Shown here piece after piece: positions 13,388 to 26,765 of a stretch of DNA of 47,385 nucleotides. How positions within the stretch are numbered: position 1 is the stretch's first letter; the number at the start of each line of letters is the position of its first letter. Origin of the DNA: Opitutaceae bacterium (GTDB lineage: Bacteria > Verrucomicrobiota > Verrucomicrobiia > Opitutales > Opitutaceae). The stretch lies in the NCBI GenBank assembly GCA_014879845.1, contig JACSRI010000148.1, positions 1 through 47,385 of the forward strand. The letters run 5' to 3'. Below the pieces are notes generated by a model, which saw only the letters and a list, made by a program, of their open reading frames with translations, ran no database searches and was not told the origin of the DNA. Made by a program: the position numbers and the translations under genes.

Positions 13388-15595
13388 CTAGGCCCGCGGC
13401 AGCGCCGCCTTCACCCGGGCCGGTGTCATGGGCATACGCAGCAGGCGCGCGCCGGTGGCGTCGTGGATGGCGTTGGCGATGAGGCCGCCCATGAGGATGA
13501 TGGCGGGCTCGCCGCCGCCCTGGGGCGGGAGGTCGTTGTGGTCGAGGAGCACGCCCTCGATCTTCGGCACCTGGGAGAAGCGTGGGATGGCGTAGCGGTT
13601 GAAGTTCGTATCCAGGATCTCGCCACCCTTGAAGTGCATCTCCTCCGAGAGGGCGTAGCCCAGGCCCATCATGACGCAGCCCTCGAGCTGGATGAGCGTG
13701 CCCTGCGGGTTGATGACCACGCCCATGTCCTGAGCGACGAGGACACGCTTCACCTTCACGGCGCCGGTGGCCTTGTCCACCTCGACCTCGGCGATGGCGG
13801 CGACATACGTGCCGGCGTCGGCGCCGCAGGCCACGCCGAGACCTCGGCGGCTCGGGGCGGGCGCGGGCTTCCAGCCCCAGGCGTCGGCCGCGGCCCGGAG
13901 CGTGCGCAGCATGCGCGCGTCGGTCATGTTCTTCAGGCGAAACTCGATCGGGTCCATCCCCGCCGCCGCGGCCATGATGTCGATCTGCGACTCGCGGGCG
14001 AAGGTGTTGGTATTGTTTGCGGGCGCGCGCCACGCGCCGGTGGCGAAGGGATGCGAGCCGGCCGGGCCGGTCCAGCCCGACGGCCGCGCGACGGTGCGGT
14101 GATGCGGCACGCTGTAGAATTGCGCGGAGCCGCGCTCGCCGGCGGCGATGACCTCGTAGTCCCAGAACGTCATCGCACCCGCGTCATCGATGCCGGAGGC
14201 GATCTTGATCTTCGCGGCGGGTCGGAACGTATCCAGGAAAAACTCCTCCTCGCGCGAACGCATCACCTGCACGGGCACGCCGGCGGCCCGGGCGAGGCGC
14301 GCGGCCTCGGCGCACTGGCCGTTGCTCGTCTTGCCACCGAAGCCGCCGCCGACGAAGGGCGTGATGACGCGCACCTTCTCGGGCGGAAAGCCCACAGTGC
14401 GCGCGAGCATGTCGCGCACGCCGAAGGGATTTTGTGTCGAGGCCCAGACGGTGAGCTTGTCGCCCTCGATCTGCGCGAGCGCGGCGTGTGTCTCCATGCA
14501 GACGTGCGCGACGTAACCGTCGAGGAAGGTGGTCTCGATCACGCGCTTGGTCGCGGCGCGGCCGGCGGCGAGATCGCCGCCGGAGTCGACGACCTTCGCG
14601 TCCTTGATCGTGGCGTCGAGGTGATCGTGGATCGTGTCCTCCGTGAGGGTCGACGCGGGCGGGAGTTCCCACTGCGCCTTGACCAAGGCGAGCGCCTCCT
14701 CGGCGCCGTCGGGTGTGGCGTGGAGCACGGCGACGAGGCCGTCCTGCTCGATCACGCGCACGCCGGCCGCCGCCTTCGCGCGGGTCGTGTCGGCGCTCGT
14801 GAGCTTGGCACCGTGCACAGGCGGGCGCAGGACCTTGGCGTAGAGCATGCCGGGCAGGCGCACGTCGCCCGTGTAGTGGGCGCGGCCCGTCACCTTGTCG
14901 CGGGCGTCGCGGCGCAGCTGCGGCTTGCCGACGATCTTGAACGCAGCGACGTCCTTGAGCGTGGGCTTCACTTCGAGATGGCGCTCGATGCGCTGGCCTT
15001 TGGTGAGCGCACCGTAGGCGACGCGGCGCGATTCGTCGCCGCGCACGAGCACGGCGCCGTCGCGCGTGATGAGCTGGTCGGCGGGCACGCCGAGGGCCTC
15101 GGCGGCGAGGAGCACGAGCACGGCCTTGGCCTCGGCGGCGGCCGCGCGGAACGGCGGGCCGAAAAAGCGCGTGGTCATCGAGCCCCACGTGCCCGCATCC
15201 CAGGGGCACAGGTCGGTGTCGCCGGCGACCATGCGCACGGTGTCGTAGGGCGCGTCGAGCTCCTCGGCCAGCATCTGCGCGAGCGAGGTGTTGATGCCCT
15301 GGCCCATCTCGATCTTGCCGGTGTAGCCGGTGATCTTTCCGTCCTCGGCGATGTGGAGGAAGGCGTTGAAGTCCTTCGGCAGCTCGTTGCGCGGGCGGCG
15401 CGGGCCCACGGTCGCGGCCTCCTCGGCGTCGGCGCGCAGCAGCGAGGTGTTGAGCGTCACGCCGATGAGCAGGCCGCCGCTGAGCATCTGGAGGAACCGC
15501 CGGCGCTCGGGTGAGGCCGGGCGGTCGGCCAGCATGGCGGCGCCGGCGGGCGTGGAGCGGAGGATCTCGAGCGAGAGTTTTTCGTAGTCGTTCAT
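13388..15595 (-). CDS. Molybdenum hydroxylase large subunit (xanthine dehydrogenase / isoquinoline oxidoreductase-like)
   Basis: 735-residue catalytic subunit of the molybdopterin hydroxylase family, closest in layout to IorB-type enzymes. A twin-arginine-like motif (ERRRFLQMLSGG, residue ~30) suggests Tat export with the cofactor bound. Mo-cofactor features include EMGQGINTSLAQMLAEEL near 95, FVGGGFGGKT near 415, and a C-terminal QGGGEPAI block carrying the candidate catalytic Glu. It would hydroxylate an N-heterocycle or aldehyde using water, passing electrons to the small subunit encoded just upstream. A good ribosome site (GGAGG, 8 bases before the ATG) is present. No FAD subunit or maturation factor is nearby, as is common for periplasmic two-subunit forms. 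The substrate cannot be deduced. Confidence 0.88.
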   Translation of the reverse strand: MNDYEKLSLEILRSTPAGAAMLADRPASPERRRFLQMLSGGLLIGVTLNTSLLRADAEEAATVGPRRPRNELPKDFNAFLHIAEDGKITGYTGKIEMGQGINTSLAQMLAEELDAPYDTVRMVAGDTDLCPWDAGTWGSMTTRFFGPPFRAAAAEAKAVLVLLAAEALGVPADQLITRDGAVLVRGDESRRVAYGALTKGQRIERHLEVKPTLKDVAAFKIVGKPQLRRDARDKVTGRAHYTGDVRLPGMLYAKVLRPPVHGAKLTSADTTRAKAAAGVRVIEQDGLVAVLHATPDGAEEALALVKAQWELPPASTLTEDTIHDHLDATIKDAKVVDSGGDLAAGRAATKRVIETTFLDGYVAHVCMETHAALAQIEGDKLTVWASTQNPFGVRDMLARTVGFPPEKVRVITPFVGGGFGGKTSNGQCAEAARLARAAGVPVQVMRSREEEFFLDTFRPAAKIKIASGIDDAGAMTFWDYEVIAAGERGSAQFYSVPHHRTVARPSGWTGPAGSHPFATGAWRAPANNTNTFARESQIDIMAAAAGMDPIEFRLKNMTDARMLRTLRAAADAWGWKPAPAPSRRGLGVACGADAGTYVAAIAEVEVDKATGAVKVKRVLVAQDMGVVINPQGTLIQLEGCVMMGLGYALSEEMHFKGGEILDTNFNRYAIPRFSQVPKIEGVLLDHNDLPPQGGGEPAIILMGGLIANAIHDATGARLLRMPMTPARVKAALPRA

Positions 15596-20622: not shown

Positions 20623-20708
20623 GGCGGCGGGGCGTGGGCGTATTGGAAACGTAGGGCCAGAGTCCTCGCTCGACCTGATGATTCCGTCTGAACAAAGCGG
20701 TCGGGTCG

Positions 20709-20834
20709 AACCACGGATAGCACAGATCGCGCGGACACAGAGGATCGGATCACAAGACTCGGGGTGAAGATCGTCACCCGTTCGATGAGCCCGCCTCCCG
20801 ATGCATCATCTTCCCCATCTGTCCGATCCGTGGT
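20709..20834. repeat. Inverted-terminus intergenic element, family E (AACCACGGAT ends)
   Basis: The left end AACCACGGATAGCACAGAT (20709-20727) and the reverse complement of the right end (20816-20834, AACCACGGATCGGACAGAT) match at 17 of 19 positions. There is no coding potential inside. Similar ends occur at 36893-37030 and 42319-42457. It fills most of the 287-base gap between the small hypothetical gene and the DUF2293 gene. It looks like a degenerate palindromic or MITE-like repeat without transposase. Confidence 0.7.
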
Positions 20835-20909
20835 TCCAACTGCCTTTCCCAGGTTCAGGCCTGTCCCTCGAGGCTTGAGCCGCGTTGCCGCGCTGCTTCT
20901 CTCGCGCGC

Positions 20910-21667: not shown

Positions 21668-22219
21668 TCAGATCAGCTCGCGATAGACCTCCGGCAGCGG
21701 GCGCGGGATCACCACCGCGTTGACCAGCATGCCGGCGTCGGCGATGAGGTCGCGGCCGGCCTGCACCGCGGCCTGCACGTTGGCGACATCGCCGGTCATC
21801 GTGACGAAGGCCTTGCCGCCGAGCGCCATGGCGAGGCGTATCTCCATCAGCACGACATTCGCGGCCTTGGCCGCGGCATCGGCCGCCTCGAGCAGCGTGC
21901 CCACGCTGAAGGCCTCGAGGATGCCGAGTGCGCCGTTGACCTCGGGTGGACTGGCGCGGCCGAGCGCGGCGATGACGTCGGCGTGCACGCTGGTGATGAC
22001 AAACTGGTCGATGAGACAGCCGTTGGCCGCCTCGGCGCCGGCGGCGACGGCGCTCTGCACGGCCGAGGGATTGCCCGCGACCATGACCATGAACTTGCCC
22101 GAGCATATCGAGCGCGAGAGCACGAGGCGCACGTTGCCGGCCTTGAGCATGGTGTCGGCGACGAGAAAGCCCGCCGCGACGCTGGATAGTTCGATGAGTC
22201 CGAGGGATGATTCGGTCAT
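21668..22219 (-). CDS. PduT-like tandem BMC shell protein with conserved pore cysteine
   Basis: 183-residue bacterial microcompartment shell protein with two BMC domains in tandem (LGLIELSSVAAGFLVADTML near the N-terminus; ALGILEAFSVGTLLEAADAA near 100), the BMC-T type that forms a pseudohexameric trimer. It resembles PduT along its length, including SICSGKF at residues 37-43. Cys39 aligns with the PduT pore cysteine that binds a [4Fe-4S] cluster on the threefold axis, so it should carry electrons across a shell. The C-terminus (VIPRPLPEVYREL) also matches PduT style. Its ATG overlaps the TGA of the PduS-like gene by 4 bases, so the pair is translationally coupled. No BMC-H or BMC-P shell gene and no cargo enzyme is in the window. 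Confidence 0.9.
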   Translation of the reverse strand: MTESSLGLIELSSVAAGFLVADTMLKAGNVRLVLSRSICSGKFMVMVAGNPSAVQSAVAAGAEAANGCLIDQFVITSVHADVIAALGRASPPEVNGALGILEAFSVGTLLEAADAAAKAANVVLMEIRLAMALGGKAFVTMTGDVANVQAAVQAGRDLIADAGMLVNAVVIPRPLPEVYRELI

Positions 22220-23541
22220 GGGGTCCTCGTGAGCACGAGTTGTGAGGGTGTGAGTTCGGCCACGGTCGCGGCGAAGGGCGCGTGGATGATCGAGCCCAGC
22301 GCCTTGTCCGGGATGGCGGTGAGGGGCTGGCCCGCGGCGACGCGCGCGCCGACCTGCACGAGGGGCTGTCCGGGCGCGCCGGCGCCCTGGCGCAGCGGCA
22401 GCACGACGCGCTGCGGTTCGAGCACGGTGGCCGACCACGGCGCGGGCACGTCGTACTGCAGCACGTGCATGCGGCGCGCGAGCGTCTTGATCGGCACGCG
22501 GCGGCCGTCGCGCAGTGGATGGACTTTCACCTCGCTCGGGCCGGTCCACTTCACGTTGGCCGCGCGCATCTCGGCCTTGGAGGCGTCGCACGCCTCCTTG
22601 GGATACAACTCCTCCGGGCAGGCGAAGAGCGTGCACAGGCCGCATGAGCAGCAAAGGGCGGCGAACTGGTTGAAATACGCCGCGCCGGTCGCGGTGAAGG
22701 CGAGCGTGCGCATGACCTGGTGCGGTTCCACGGCGTATCCAAGAAGGTAACGCGGGCAGTACTCCGTGCAGTAGCGGCATTGGTCGCACGCGCTTTTCCC
22801 GATCTTCGCCTGCACGGCGGGTTTCTTCAGCTTGCGCTCCATCAGGTGATGGCCGCGCGGCAGCACGACCACGCCGGTCGTGGTCTTGGTGACCGGGCGA
22901 TCGAGGTCTTCCGTCACTTCGCCCATCATCAGGCCACCGAGGCTGTAGACGGGATCGTCGGTCGCGAATCCGCCGGCGGCGCGCTCGACGCATTCGCGCA
23001 GCGAGGTGCCGATCGGCACGGTGAATGTGACAGGCGTGCGCACGGCGCCGGCGATCGTGAGTGTCTTGTGCGTGACGGGGCGGTCCTGCTCCGCGGCCTC
23101 GGCGATGTTCACGAGCGTCTCGACGTTGTTCACGACGGCGCCGACGTGGATCGGGATGCCGCCCGGCGGGATGAGCCGGCCGGTCACGGAGTAGACGAGA
23201 TCGTACTCGTCGCCGGCGGGATAGTAGTCGCCCAGGAGATGCACGCGCACGGTCGTGCCGGCGCACGCGGCCTGCACGACCTCGACCGCGTGTTTCTTCT
23301 TCGCCTTGATGCCGATCACGCCGTGGGCGGCGCCGACCGCCTCCATGGCGAGCTGCATGCCGCGCACGAGCCGGGCGGCCTGCGTCTCCATGATCACGGC
23401 GTCCTTGTGCAGGAGCGGCTCGCACTCAGCGCCATTGGCGATGACGTACTCGGCCCGTGCGGTGAGTTTGACGTGGGCGGGGAACCCTCCGCCGCCGGCG
23501 CCGACCACGCCGGCCAGCCTGACCTTGTCCGCGAGGTTCAT
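22216..23541 (-). CDS. PduS/RnfC-like Fe-S flavoprotein electron carrier
   Basis: 441-residue protein of the RnfC/NuoF-SLBB group, closest to PduS. The N-terminal flavin/NADH-type region has GVVGAGGGGFPAHVKL and YVIANGAECEPLLHKD. A SLBB-like section follows, then two [4Fe-4S] sites: CDQCRYCTEYCPR (near residue 265) and CCSCGLCTLFACPEELYPKE (near 305-325). The C-terminal ~80 residues look like a lipoyl/barrel-sandwich module (QVGARVAAGQPLTAIPDKAL). In Pdu compartments PduS is a cobalamin reductase that binds the Fe-S shell protein PduT. I chose ATG 23541 (MNLADKV); the extra 69 residues in frame upstream are Arg/Ser-rich noise. Divergent from the TonB receptor. Confidence 0.88.
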   Translation of the reverse strand: MNLADKVRLAGVVGAGGGGFPAHVKLTARAEYVIANGAECEPLLHKDAVIMETQAARLVRGMQLAMEAVGAAHGVIGIKAKKKHAVEVVQAACAGTTVRVHLLGDYYPAGDEYDLVYSVTGRLIPPGGIPIHVGAVVNNVETLVNIAEAAEQDRPVTHKTLTIAGAVRTPVTFTVPIGTSLRECVERAAGGFATDDPVYSLGGLMMGEVTEDLDRPVTKTTTGVVVLPRGHHLMERKLKKPAVQAKIGKSACDQCRYCTEYCPRYLLGYAVEPHQVMRTLAFTATGAAYFNQFAALCCSCGLCTLFACPEELYPKEACDASKAEMRAANVKWTGPSEVKVHPLRDGRRVPIKTLARRMHVLQYDVPAPWSATVLEPQRVVLPLRQGAGAPGQPLVQVGARVAAGQPLTAIPDKALGSIIHAPFAATVAELTPSQLVLTRTP

Positions 23542-23786: not shown

Positions 23787-26765
23787 ATGACCCACACCCT
23801 GCAGAACCCGTCAACGGGACTTTCCGATTCGAGACGGAAGCCCCTTGTTCTCCCTCTCGTGCTCGTCGCTGCGCTCACGGCTGGCAGCAGTGCCGTGCTG
23901 GCCCAGACGCCGGCTCCCGCTCCATCCACGACTCCTGCCGCGACCGAGACCGCCAAGACCCCCGCGCCCCAGCCCGACGAAGCCATCGAGCTCGAGGAGT
24001 TTGTCGTCTCCGGCATCCGCGAGTCGCTCACCAAGGCGCTCGATGTGAAGCGCGAGAACTACCAGTCCGTCGACTCCATCGTCGCCGAGGACATCGGCAA
24101 ATTCCCTGACAACAACGTCGTCGAGGCGCTCCAGCGCGTCAGCGGCGTGCAGGTGACCAACCGCTTCCGTGGCGAGGTCGCCGCGGTCACGATCCGCGGT
24201 CTGCCCGACGTCACCACCACGGTCAACGGCCGCAATGTCTTCACCGCCGCCGGCCGCGCCGTGGCGCTGCAGGACATCCCGGCCGCGCTGCTCAACCGCG
24301 TCGACGTCTACAAGACCCGCTCCTCCGACCTCATCGAGTCGGGCATCGCCGGCGTCATCGACGTGCGCACGCAGCGTCCGTTCGACTTCAAGGACCGCAA
24401 GGTCGTGCTCTCCGCCCGCGCCATCTACCAGGAGCAAGCCGACACGATCGGGCCGAATGTCAGCGCCCTCGTGAGCGACACCTGGGAGCTGGAAAACGGC
24501 GGCAAGTTCGGCGCCCTCTTCAGCCTCTCCTACGCCAACACCGAGTACCGCGACCAGAGCGTGACCGCGGGTGCGCAGTTGCCGTTCGTCACCGCGACGC
24601 CTCCGGCTCCGTGGACGCCCTATGAGCGCATCTTCGCCACGAAGGGCGGCGTTGCCGAGAACCCGATCTGGACGCCGGGTCTCGACGACGGTCTGCCGAC
24701 CGCACCCGGCTCGACACTGCCGATGACCATCGGCGAGTCGACGGTGCAGGTGCCCTACGTCCTCTCGCGCGACGCCATCTTCGCCAGCGACTTCACCGGC
24801 GACCGCACGCGTCCCGCCGCCAACCTCGCGCTGCAGTGGGCACCGAACGAGAAGTCCACCTACACCTTCGAGGCGTTCTACAACGGCTACCGCGACGACA
24901 CGTTCAACGACCTGCACTTCGCCTTCGTCGACTGGTGGGGCGCCCTCAGCGCCAATCCGTCCGCCGACATCGATCTCTGGGAGGGCACGAACATCGTGAA
25001 GGCCCGCCGCAACGTCGGCTTTCCCTACGGTTTCATGAGCGGTGACTACACCGAGGCCAAGACCGACAGCTACGTCTACGCCCTCGGCGGCGAATGGGAG
25101 ATCAGCGACAAGTTCAAGCTCTCCGCCGACCTCTCGATGCAGGACAGCGAGTTCGAGAGCCAGTTCTTCGCCGTGCGCACCGACCGCGTGCACCGCATGA
25201 TCAGCGTCGACTTCAATTCCGGCGACGGCCTGCCCGCCTTCAGCTACGGAGACGATGCCGCGACGGCCGACGTCGACGAGAGCGACCTCACCAACCCGGC
25301 GCTCTGGAATGTCGCGCAGATGTGGGACAACGGCAACTACGACAAGGGCGACGCCCAGTCGCTCAAGATCGACGGCGACTACGAGCTCGACTGGGGCATC
25401 TTCAAGTCCCTCGGCTTCGGCGGCCTCTACGACGTGCGCGGCGCGCAGTCGGGCAACCGCACCCAGTGGTCGCAGGACCGCGGCCTGGGTCGCACGCTCG
25501 CGACCTTCGATGCCGCCGCCACCTACATCAACGAGGACTTCTGGGACGGACTCTCCGACGTGCCGAGCTCGTGGGCGGTCTTCAACGGCCACTACATCCC
25601 GGCACATCGGGATGAGATCCGCTCACTCTACAACACGAGGTACGCCACCGATCCGAACTACGTGCCGCTGCTCCTGAGCGACGCCCTCGTGATGCGTGAG
25701 ACCTTCGACGTCGAGGAGACGACCACCGCGCTCTACCTCATGACCAACTTCGAGACGCGCCTTGAGGGCGCAGGCAAGATCGACGGCCAGATCGGCGTGC
25801 GCTACGTCGACGTGTCGAGCGACACGGTCTTCACCGACCAGACCACGCAGGCGGAGACCACGGGCTCGGCCAGCAACAGCAAGCTCCTGCCCAGCCTCAC
25901 CGTCCGCTACAACATCACCGACGACTTCCGTGTGCGCCTGAGCTACTGCGAGACCCTGCGCATGCCGGGCTTCAATGACCTGAATCCGACGATCACCTAC
26001 GTCGAGGACGTGACGGACATCGGCTACGGCACGGCCAGCGGCGGCAACGCCGACCTCCAGCCGACGGAGTCGAGGAACTACGACCTCTCGCTCGAGTACT
26101 ACTTCGGCAAGTCCAGCGCGGTCTATGGATCGCTCTTCAAGCGCGACATCGACGGCCTCGTGGTGCCGTTCCGTCGCCGCGTCACGGCGCAGACCACGGC
26201 CCACCCCGAGGGCTACGACTACATCCTCTCGCAGCCCTACAACGCCTCGGACGGCGAGCTGACCGGCTACGAGGTGGGTGCGATCTACTTCCCGGAGAAC
26301 CTGCCCGACCTCCTCGATGGCTTCGGCGTACAGGCCAGCTACACCTCGCTCGACTCCGAGCAGAACATTCCGCTCACCGATAACGCTGGCAACGTCACCG
26401 GCCAGAAGCGGGGTCCGTTCTTCGCCGTGTCGGACACGTCCTACAACGTCACGCTCGCCTACGAGAAGAAGCACTGGGGCGCCCGCCTCGGCTACGTCTG
26501 GCGCTCGGACTTCCTCAACAACAACGAGGCCGCGCTCTTCGCCAATCCGATCGGCGTCTACCGCCGTCCGGAGTCCAGTCTCGACCTGCAGGTCAGCTGG
26601 CAGGCCATGGAGAACCTCGTGTTCACCTTCGATGCGACCAACCTGACCGACGAGCTCGTGGCCCAGAGCCACTACGGCAACCAGTCGGGCAACGCCAAGA
26701 CCAACAACTTCGGCAACGTGCTCATCGGCCGCACGTTCTCGGTCGGCGCGCGTTACTCGTTCTGA
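23787..26765 (+). CDS. TonB-dependent outer-membrane receptor (oar/Caulobacter-Xanthomonas type)
   Basis: 992-residue outer-membrane receptor for energised uptake of a large or scarce ligand. Signal peptide: after SRRKPLVLPLVLVAALTAGS, cleavage near AVLAQ. A Pro/Thr linker leads to IELEEFVVSGIRESLTKALD, the short conserved stretch typical of this receptor type. The plug domain follows (VDSIVAEDIGKFPDNNVVEA, VTIRGLPDVTTTVNGR), then a 22-strand barrel ending VLIGRTFSVGARYSF with the terminal Phe. The plug resembles TIGR01782-type receptors, many of which act on plant glycans. No TonB box is certain. I chose ATG 23787; in-frame ATGs at 23694 and 23760 would lengthen the n-region. A good terminator follows. 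The ligand is unknown; the neighbouring arabinan and xylan loci make glycan fragments a fair guess. Confidence 0.93.
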   Translation: MTHTLQNPSTGLSDSRRKPLVLPLVLVAALTAGSSAVLAQTPAPAPSTTPAATETAKTPAPQPDEAIELEEFVVSGIRESLTKALDVKRENYQSVDSIVAEDIGKFPDNNVVEALQRVSGVQVTNRFRGEVAAVTIRGLPDVTTTVNGRNVFTAAGRAVALQDIPAALLNRVDVYKTRSSDLIESGIAGVIDVRTQRPFDFKDRKVVLSARAIYQEQADTIGPNVSALVSDTWELENGGKFGALFSLSYANTEYRDQSVTAGAQLPFVTATPPAPWTPYERIFATKGGVAENPIWTPGLDDGLPTAPGSTLPMTIGESTVQVPYVLSRDAIFASDFTGDRTRPAANLALQWAPNEKSTYTFEAFYNGYRDDTFNDLHFAFVDWWGALSANPSADIDLWEGTNIVKARRNVGFPYGFMSGDYTEAKTDSYVYALGGEWEISDKFKLSADLSMQDSEFESQFFAVRTDRVHRMISVDFNSGDGLPAFSYGDDAATADVDESDLTNPALWNVAQMWDNGNYDKGDAQSLKIDGDYELDWGIFKSLGFGGLYDVRGAQSGNRTQWSQDRGLGRTLATFDAAATYINEDFWDGLSDVPSSWAVFNGHYIPAHRDEIRSLYNTRYATDPNYVPLLLSDALVMRETFDVEETTTALYLMTNFETRLEGAGKIDGQIGVRYVDVSSDTVFTDQTTQAETTGSASNSKLLPSLTVRYNITDDFRVRLSYCETLRMPGFNDLNPTITYVEDVTDIGYGTASGGNADLQPTESRNYDLSLEYYFGKSSAVYGSLFKRDIDGLVVPFRRRVTAQTTAHPEGYDYILSQPYNASDGELTGYEVGAIYFPENLPDLLDGFGVQASYTSLDSEQNIPLTDNAGNVTGQKRGPFFAVSDTSYNVTLAYEKKHWGARLGYVWRSDFLNNNEAALFANPIGVYRRPESSLDLQVSWQAMENLVFTFDATNLTDELVAQSHYGNQSGNAKTNNFGNVLIGRTFSVGARYSF

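Follow-up and report, generated by a model that had tools for sequence, protein, structure and literature searches.

The window analysed here is a stretch of 47,385 nucleotides (47 kb) that makes up one entire contig (C220) of the draft genome of an Opitutaceae bacterium (G000). Two adjacent genes on its minus strand form the locus of interest, i.e., pduS (22216..23541, ATG start, 441 aa), encoding a PduS-type NADH/FMN/2x[4Fe-4S] flavoprotein, and directly behind it pduT (21668..22219, ATG start, 183 aa), encoding a PduT-type tandem BMC (BMC-T) shell protein. Both genes were assigned by open reading frames and domain matches, and the ranges were identical to those of the original prediction. 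The pduS stop and the pduT start share a 4-nt ATGA overlap (22216..22219, minus strand), which bears out the proposed translational coupling of the two genes.

Profile searches of PduS returned the domain order Complex1_51K (E 1e-45), SLBB, Fer4_17 dicluster and a C-terminal RnfC_N, and these domains are the ones described for PduS (PMC6325248). The NADH/FMN-binding (Nuo51-like) domain covers residues 7-147 (23101..23523, minus strand) and contains the conserved GaGGgGFP...NgAECEP. Two tetracysteine [4Fe-4S] motifs follow, C252-x2-C255-x2-C258-x3-C262 (22756..22788, minus strand) and C297..C300-x2-C303-x4-C308 (22618..22653, minus strand), and each of these cysteines was present in 95/95 relatives. 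The nearest solved homologues are RnfC subunits, and the protein shares the Nuo51-like FMN/NADH domain, the SLBB domain and the 4Fe-4S dicluster with RnfC/NuoF. Unlike in RnfC, however, where RnfC_N is N-terminal, this domain is C-terminal in the window protein, whose score stays below the RnfC cut-off (228 vs 246) and below the PrdC cut-off as well; furthermore, no rnf operon was noticed at the window locus. In Citrobacter, PduS is known to bind FMN as well as two [4Fe-4S] clusters; NADH reduces it, and PduT co-purifies with it (PMC2982820).

PduT comprises two tandem, non-permuted PF00936 domains (E 5e-45), and its nearest solved homologues are the PduT-type chains 3nwg, 3pac and 3n79, matched over the full length. 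The tandem BMC protein had been proposed to keep the PduT pore cysteine, and this was confirmed by the alignment of its pore motif SICSGKF with SKTICPGKF of chain 3pac and by conservation of the residue, C39 in the first BMC domain (codon 22103..22105, minus strand), as Cys in 96/96 relatives. Loss of a cluster-binding cysteine among relatives, which would have spoken against the original prediction, was not seen in either protein. It is known that the PduT trimer carries a [4Fe-4S] cluster via three pore cysteines (PMC6325248). With 128 bits compared to a cut-off of 250 for the NCBI equivalog TIGR02526, the window protein is, judged by its sequence, PduT-like and not a Pdu/Eut equivalog. The lysines K26 and K118 are also invariant (96/96) and presumably correspond, by position, to the lysine at the edge of BMC hexamers (PduA) through which adjacent tiles are joined. 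Conservation was tested on clean alignments of 96 PduS and 97 PduT sequences, in which the window pair showed 0 departures in the 79 PduS and 32 PduT columns conserved at ≥97%. Together with the invariant cluster and pore cysteines and edge lysines, this suggests that PduT has been constrained along most of its branch, and the protein still resembles a facet tile.

Regarding the neighbours on the contig, the TonB receptor noted earlier next to the pair (23787-26765) is a real gene, but its position is incidental rather than conserved. No homologue was found next to any pair in ~115 loci, which answers the original prediction's question about recurrence beside TonB receptors in the negative, and the receptor was rejected as a functional neighbour. 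The large subunit of a molybdopterin-binding aldehyde/xanthine oxidoreductase (13388-15595, minus strand), 6 kb from the pair, was also rejected as a partner, as matches occurred in only 4 of ~115 loci and at varying distances. A 20-nt inverted repeat (20708-20727 and 20817-20836; 90% complementary, 89 nt apart) is intergenic and lies before a DUF2293 gene.

To place the pair among its relatives, 84,980 species genomes were scanned, which yielded 80 loci with PduT homologues. PduS adjoined PduT in every PduT-type locus examined (80 loci). The original prediction had asked whether the pair recurs apart from shell loci, and this was the case for 42 of the loci examined, which are satellites whose flanks reach 5 kb or more in either direction and in whose vicinity shell genes are missing. 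Another ~23 loci adjoin shell operons, a number that excludes L027, L150, L160, L162 and L166, as these are main shell loci in which the PduT query spanned two BMC-H genes. In Verrucomicrobia, the adjacent operon is of the PVM type (Planctomycetes/Verrucomicrobia) with the order PduL, BMC-H, BMC-H, AckA, BMC-H, BMC-P, AldDH, BMC-P, BMC-P and aldolase, often ended by an LDH/MDH-type gene after the aldolase. A metallo-beta-lactamase-fold gene is conserved near satellite pairs of the window's family (L024, L028, L056, L061, L147, L149, L151, L155, L159, L161 and L165), often directly beside pduT, and several of these pairs lie near groES/groEL. At L186 (G035, a single-contig genome, C1:2093500-2112500), PVM shell genes and the aldolase are present, and AldDH, PduL and AckA were undetected within ~9 kb.

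Pentamer genes, usually three, were found in 49/50 pair-bearing genomes of the wider set. The exception is G213 (ADurb.Bin118, locus L073), the sole other pair-bearing genome found without them. Within the window's family, the pair was found in 27 of 200 genomes, of which the other 26 all carry pentamer genes (26/26), compared to 71/173 pair-less genomes (Fisher p 1e-9, for genomes that are not phylogenetically independent and in a family set that partly overlaps with the wider set). A sparser sample of 388 genomes from across the phylum revealed six other pair-bearing genomes, all from this family and all with pentamer genes. Conversely, only ~27% of the shell-bearing family genomes have the pair, and most PVM loci lack it. 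PVM (fucose/rhamnose) organelles have the pair as an optional accessory, which is usually satellite-encoded. For the relatives, many of whose pairs lie far from the operon, the earlier proposal of a satellite serving a PVM-type shell is therefore supported; in the present genome, no shell was found, and the satellite has no visible main locus.

The genome is a 277-contig draft of 5.44 Mb with a completeness of 99.43% and a contamination of 1.84%. Over the whole assembly, the PF00936 profile matched only the two BMC domains of the window PduT, and neither the pentamer profile (PF03319) nor the PduL profile (PF06130) gave any match. The lack of hexamer and pentamer genes that had been noted near the pair thus extends from the 47-kb contig, which holds no further BMC gene (PF00936, PF03319), to the entire assembly. 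A fused query of PVM PduL, AldDH, EP aldolase, RhaB and RhaA retrieved only RhaA and remote class II aldolases from the genome. Among its FGGY kinases, which we assigned by inspection to two glycerol-kinase types, one xylulokinase and one AraB type, there was no rhamnulokinase. The pair, being the sole BMC genes on its contig, is an insufficient shell set as in satellite loci, but neither a main locus with BMC-H and BMC-P nor the PVM set of BMC-H, BMC-P triplet, PduL, AldDH and EP class II aldolase was found elsewhere in the assembly. In one 510-aa ORF (G000:C171:38951-40183; L145:8658-10190), two class II aldolase domains stand in tandem; in relatives, its homologues are located either beside the PVM operon or between RhaB and RhaA (L163:14434-15606, L199 and L196).

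We further inspected dapL-panC, the commonest site of PVM operons in pair-bearing genomes of the family (14/26 loci). PVM operons adjoin dapL-panC at L182, L194, L219, L023, L148, L150, L152, L156 and L160, and further ones at L162, L166, L208, L209, L211, L214, L216 and L217; at times, panE lies on the other side of the operon. In the present genome, contig C91, whose tetranucleotide composition matches the bin, carries dapL together with panC, and panC is adjoined by a GNAT gene and nadB, with no shell operon. The site is assembled and empty, and an assembly gap at this position was rejected, as dapL-panC and then GNAT and nadB are on a single contig. About half of the family PVM loci lie away from dapL-panC, so that a gap elsewhere, or a plasmid, is conceivable. 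A PVM main locus might thus be present in the organism and be missing from the draft, be it at another site, on a plasmid or on an unbinned contig, which would make the pair an ordinary satellite. The shell that nearly all other pair-bearing genomes possess and a draft in 277 contigs with evident binning errors argue for this possibility, which we nevertheless consider rather doubtful in view of the high completeness, the absence of all PVM genes searched (shell, PduL, AldDH and aldolase) and of rhamnulokinase, and the empty commonest site.

In a tree of concatenated PduS and PduT (IQ-TREE, LG+C20, 63 rows), most family pairs formed one clade (100/99). The window pair fell outside of this clade and formed a five-member one (99/96) together with pairs of other Verrucomicrobia (L051, L052, L067 and L069); each of these four genomes contains three pentamer genes. 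The branch of the window pair measures 0.31 changes per column. As the pair groups outside the clade of its own family, horizontal acquisition is likely and would be the simplest reading. Transfer as a block with the sister loci was rejected, since no synteny is shared, and at the pair we found no tRNA, no convincing flanking repeats and no Rfam match as marks of a mobile element. The same position in the tree, a contamination of 1.84% and two compositional outliers in the bin could also mean that the window contig was mis-binned from another, shell-bearing verrucomicrobium. This is very unlikely, as the tetranucleotide profile of the window correlates at 0.95-0.96 with four other bin contigs and the GC content matches (0.686), compared to 0.90 for the best foreign locus and 0.53-0.82 for the sister loci. 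The outliers are contigs C194 and C110, with correlations of 0.78-0.87 to other contigs (0.92-0.95 among those) and 0.90 to each other, and they are probably contaminants of the bin. C194 (L144) carries RhaA and C110 (L179) a second panC. RhaA without RhaB, considered as a sign of an assembly gap, was dropped because of this probable contamination.

We favour, with some reserve, an electron conduit formed by PduS and PduT for a PVM-type shell, i.e., the optional and usually satellite-encoded accessory known from the relatives, whose partner shell is absent from the assembly. Most likely, the partner organelle was lost after the horizontal acquisition of the pair or never accompanied it; a partner shell on unassembled DNA is less likely. 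In the proposed mechanism, lumenal NADH from lactaldehyde dehydrogenase would reduce the FMN of PduS, from where electrons would travel via both [4Fe-4S] clusters of this protein to a further [4Fe-4S] cluster, coordinated by three C39 residues in the PduT trimer pore, and on to a cytosolic acceptor. NAD+ would thereby be regenerated inside the shell without cobalamin. It has been described that PVM organelles oxidise lactaldehyde with NAD+, and the LDH/MDH-type gene was proposed to restore the NAD+ (PMC4207490); an electron-exporting PduS-PduT conduit would serve the same end. The gene followed the aldolase in 12/25 pair-bearing and 22/28 pair-less loci (p 0.025), a difference that was not significant after collapsing by genus (9/18 and 12/15, p 0.15), and we take this distribution as a weak hint at NAD+ recycling by the pair. 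For the present genome, the conduit role is extrapolated from the relatives, as electrons would have nothing to cross without a shell.

The original prediction had also raised a stand-alone redox complex. Retained after loss of the organelle, PduT trimers and PduS could form a soluble NADH-oxidising complex outside any shell, and a bacterium without a microcompartment would then have repurposed a BMC trimer, together with a flavoprotein, as a free redox scaffold. Such a role would fit the complete lack of shell genes in a nearly complete assembly, the empty common site, and sequences that are intact and strongly constrained along the branch of 0.31 changes per column. We consider it improbable. 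It has no positive support, the shell-tiling lysines are kept, no new partner gene is conserved, and only one other of ~75 pair-bearing genomes (G213) is likewise without pentamer genes, so the shell-less condition is not a recurring, stable lifestyle. For this genome, a PVM accessory whose organelle is gone thus ranks as the likeliest reading; an organelle that the draft fails to cover comes second, and the repurposed complex third.

The cobalamin-reducing role that had been attributed to the two proteins is unlikely here because PVM chemistry is B12-free. Homology to PduS and PduT, and the reduction of cobalamin by the characterised PduS (PMC2982820), would be in line with a pair that reduces cobalamin for a Pdu-type compartment, as in Salmonella/Citrobacter. 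We give this hardly any credence, since no other pdu gene was seen in the window, no cobalamin riboswitch was found, the partner organelle of the relatives is a PVM one, which has a class II aldolase but lacks a B12 enzyme, and PduT fails the equivalog cut-off. The window pair and the pair of the Pdu organelle have in common the same two proteins as partner genes, the domain order of PduS and the pore cysteine of PduT; in contrast, the window pair lies outside a pdu operon and lacks a diol dehydratase context, with a PduT below the equivalog score. The B12-independent GRM1, GRM3 and GRM5 organelles also carry an adjacent PduS/PduT pair, and GRM5, which degrades fucose/rhamnose too, always has it (PMC6325248). 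They differ from the window in their glycyl radical enzyme context, phylum and shell type. The pair is also connected to the PVM organelle (PduL, 3 BMC-H, 3 BMC-P, AldDH and EP aldolase), beside which or in whose genomes its relatives are found, whereas most PVM loci have no pair and the present genome carries the pair without a PVM locus. As in BMC satellite loci (Axen 2014; Sutter 2021), a shell protein and its partner are encoded away from a main locus, but a satellite has, by definition, a main locus, and none was found here.

Satellite loci are a known concept (PMC4207490, PMC8217296), and PduS/PduT outside of B12 organelles are known for GRM types (PMC6325248). In the main texts of the open literature searched, we did not find PduS/PduT described as PVM satellites. 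New are the recurrence of the pair as a PVM satellite and its presence in a genome that has no shell. For organelles that do without vitamin B12, the function of PduS/PduT is regarded as unsettled (PMC6325248). A PVM organelle that is aerobic, B12-free and radical-free and has an optional pair removes both proposed roles, cobalamin reduction and glycyl-radical activation, which leaves electron export and NAD+ recycling as the simplest one. PVM-bearing strains with and without the pair make this role testable, and a genome that carries the pair without a shell would serve as a natural control.
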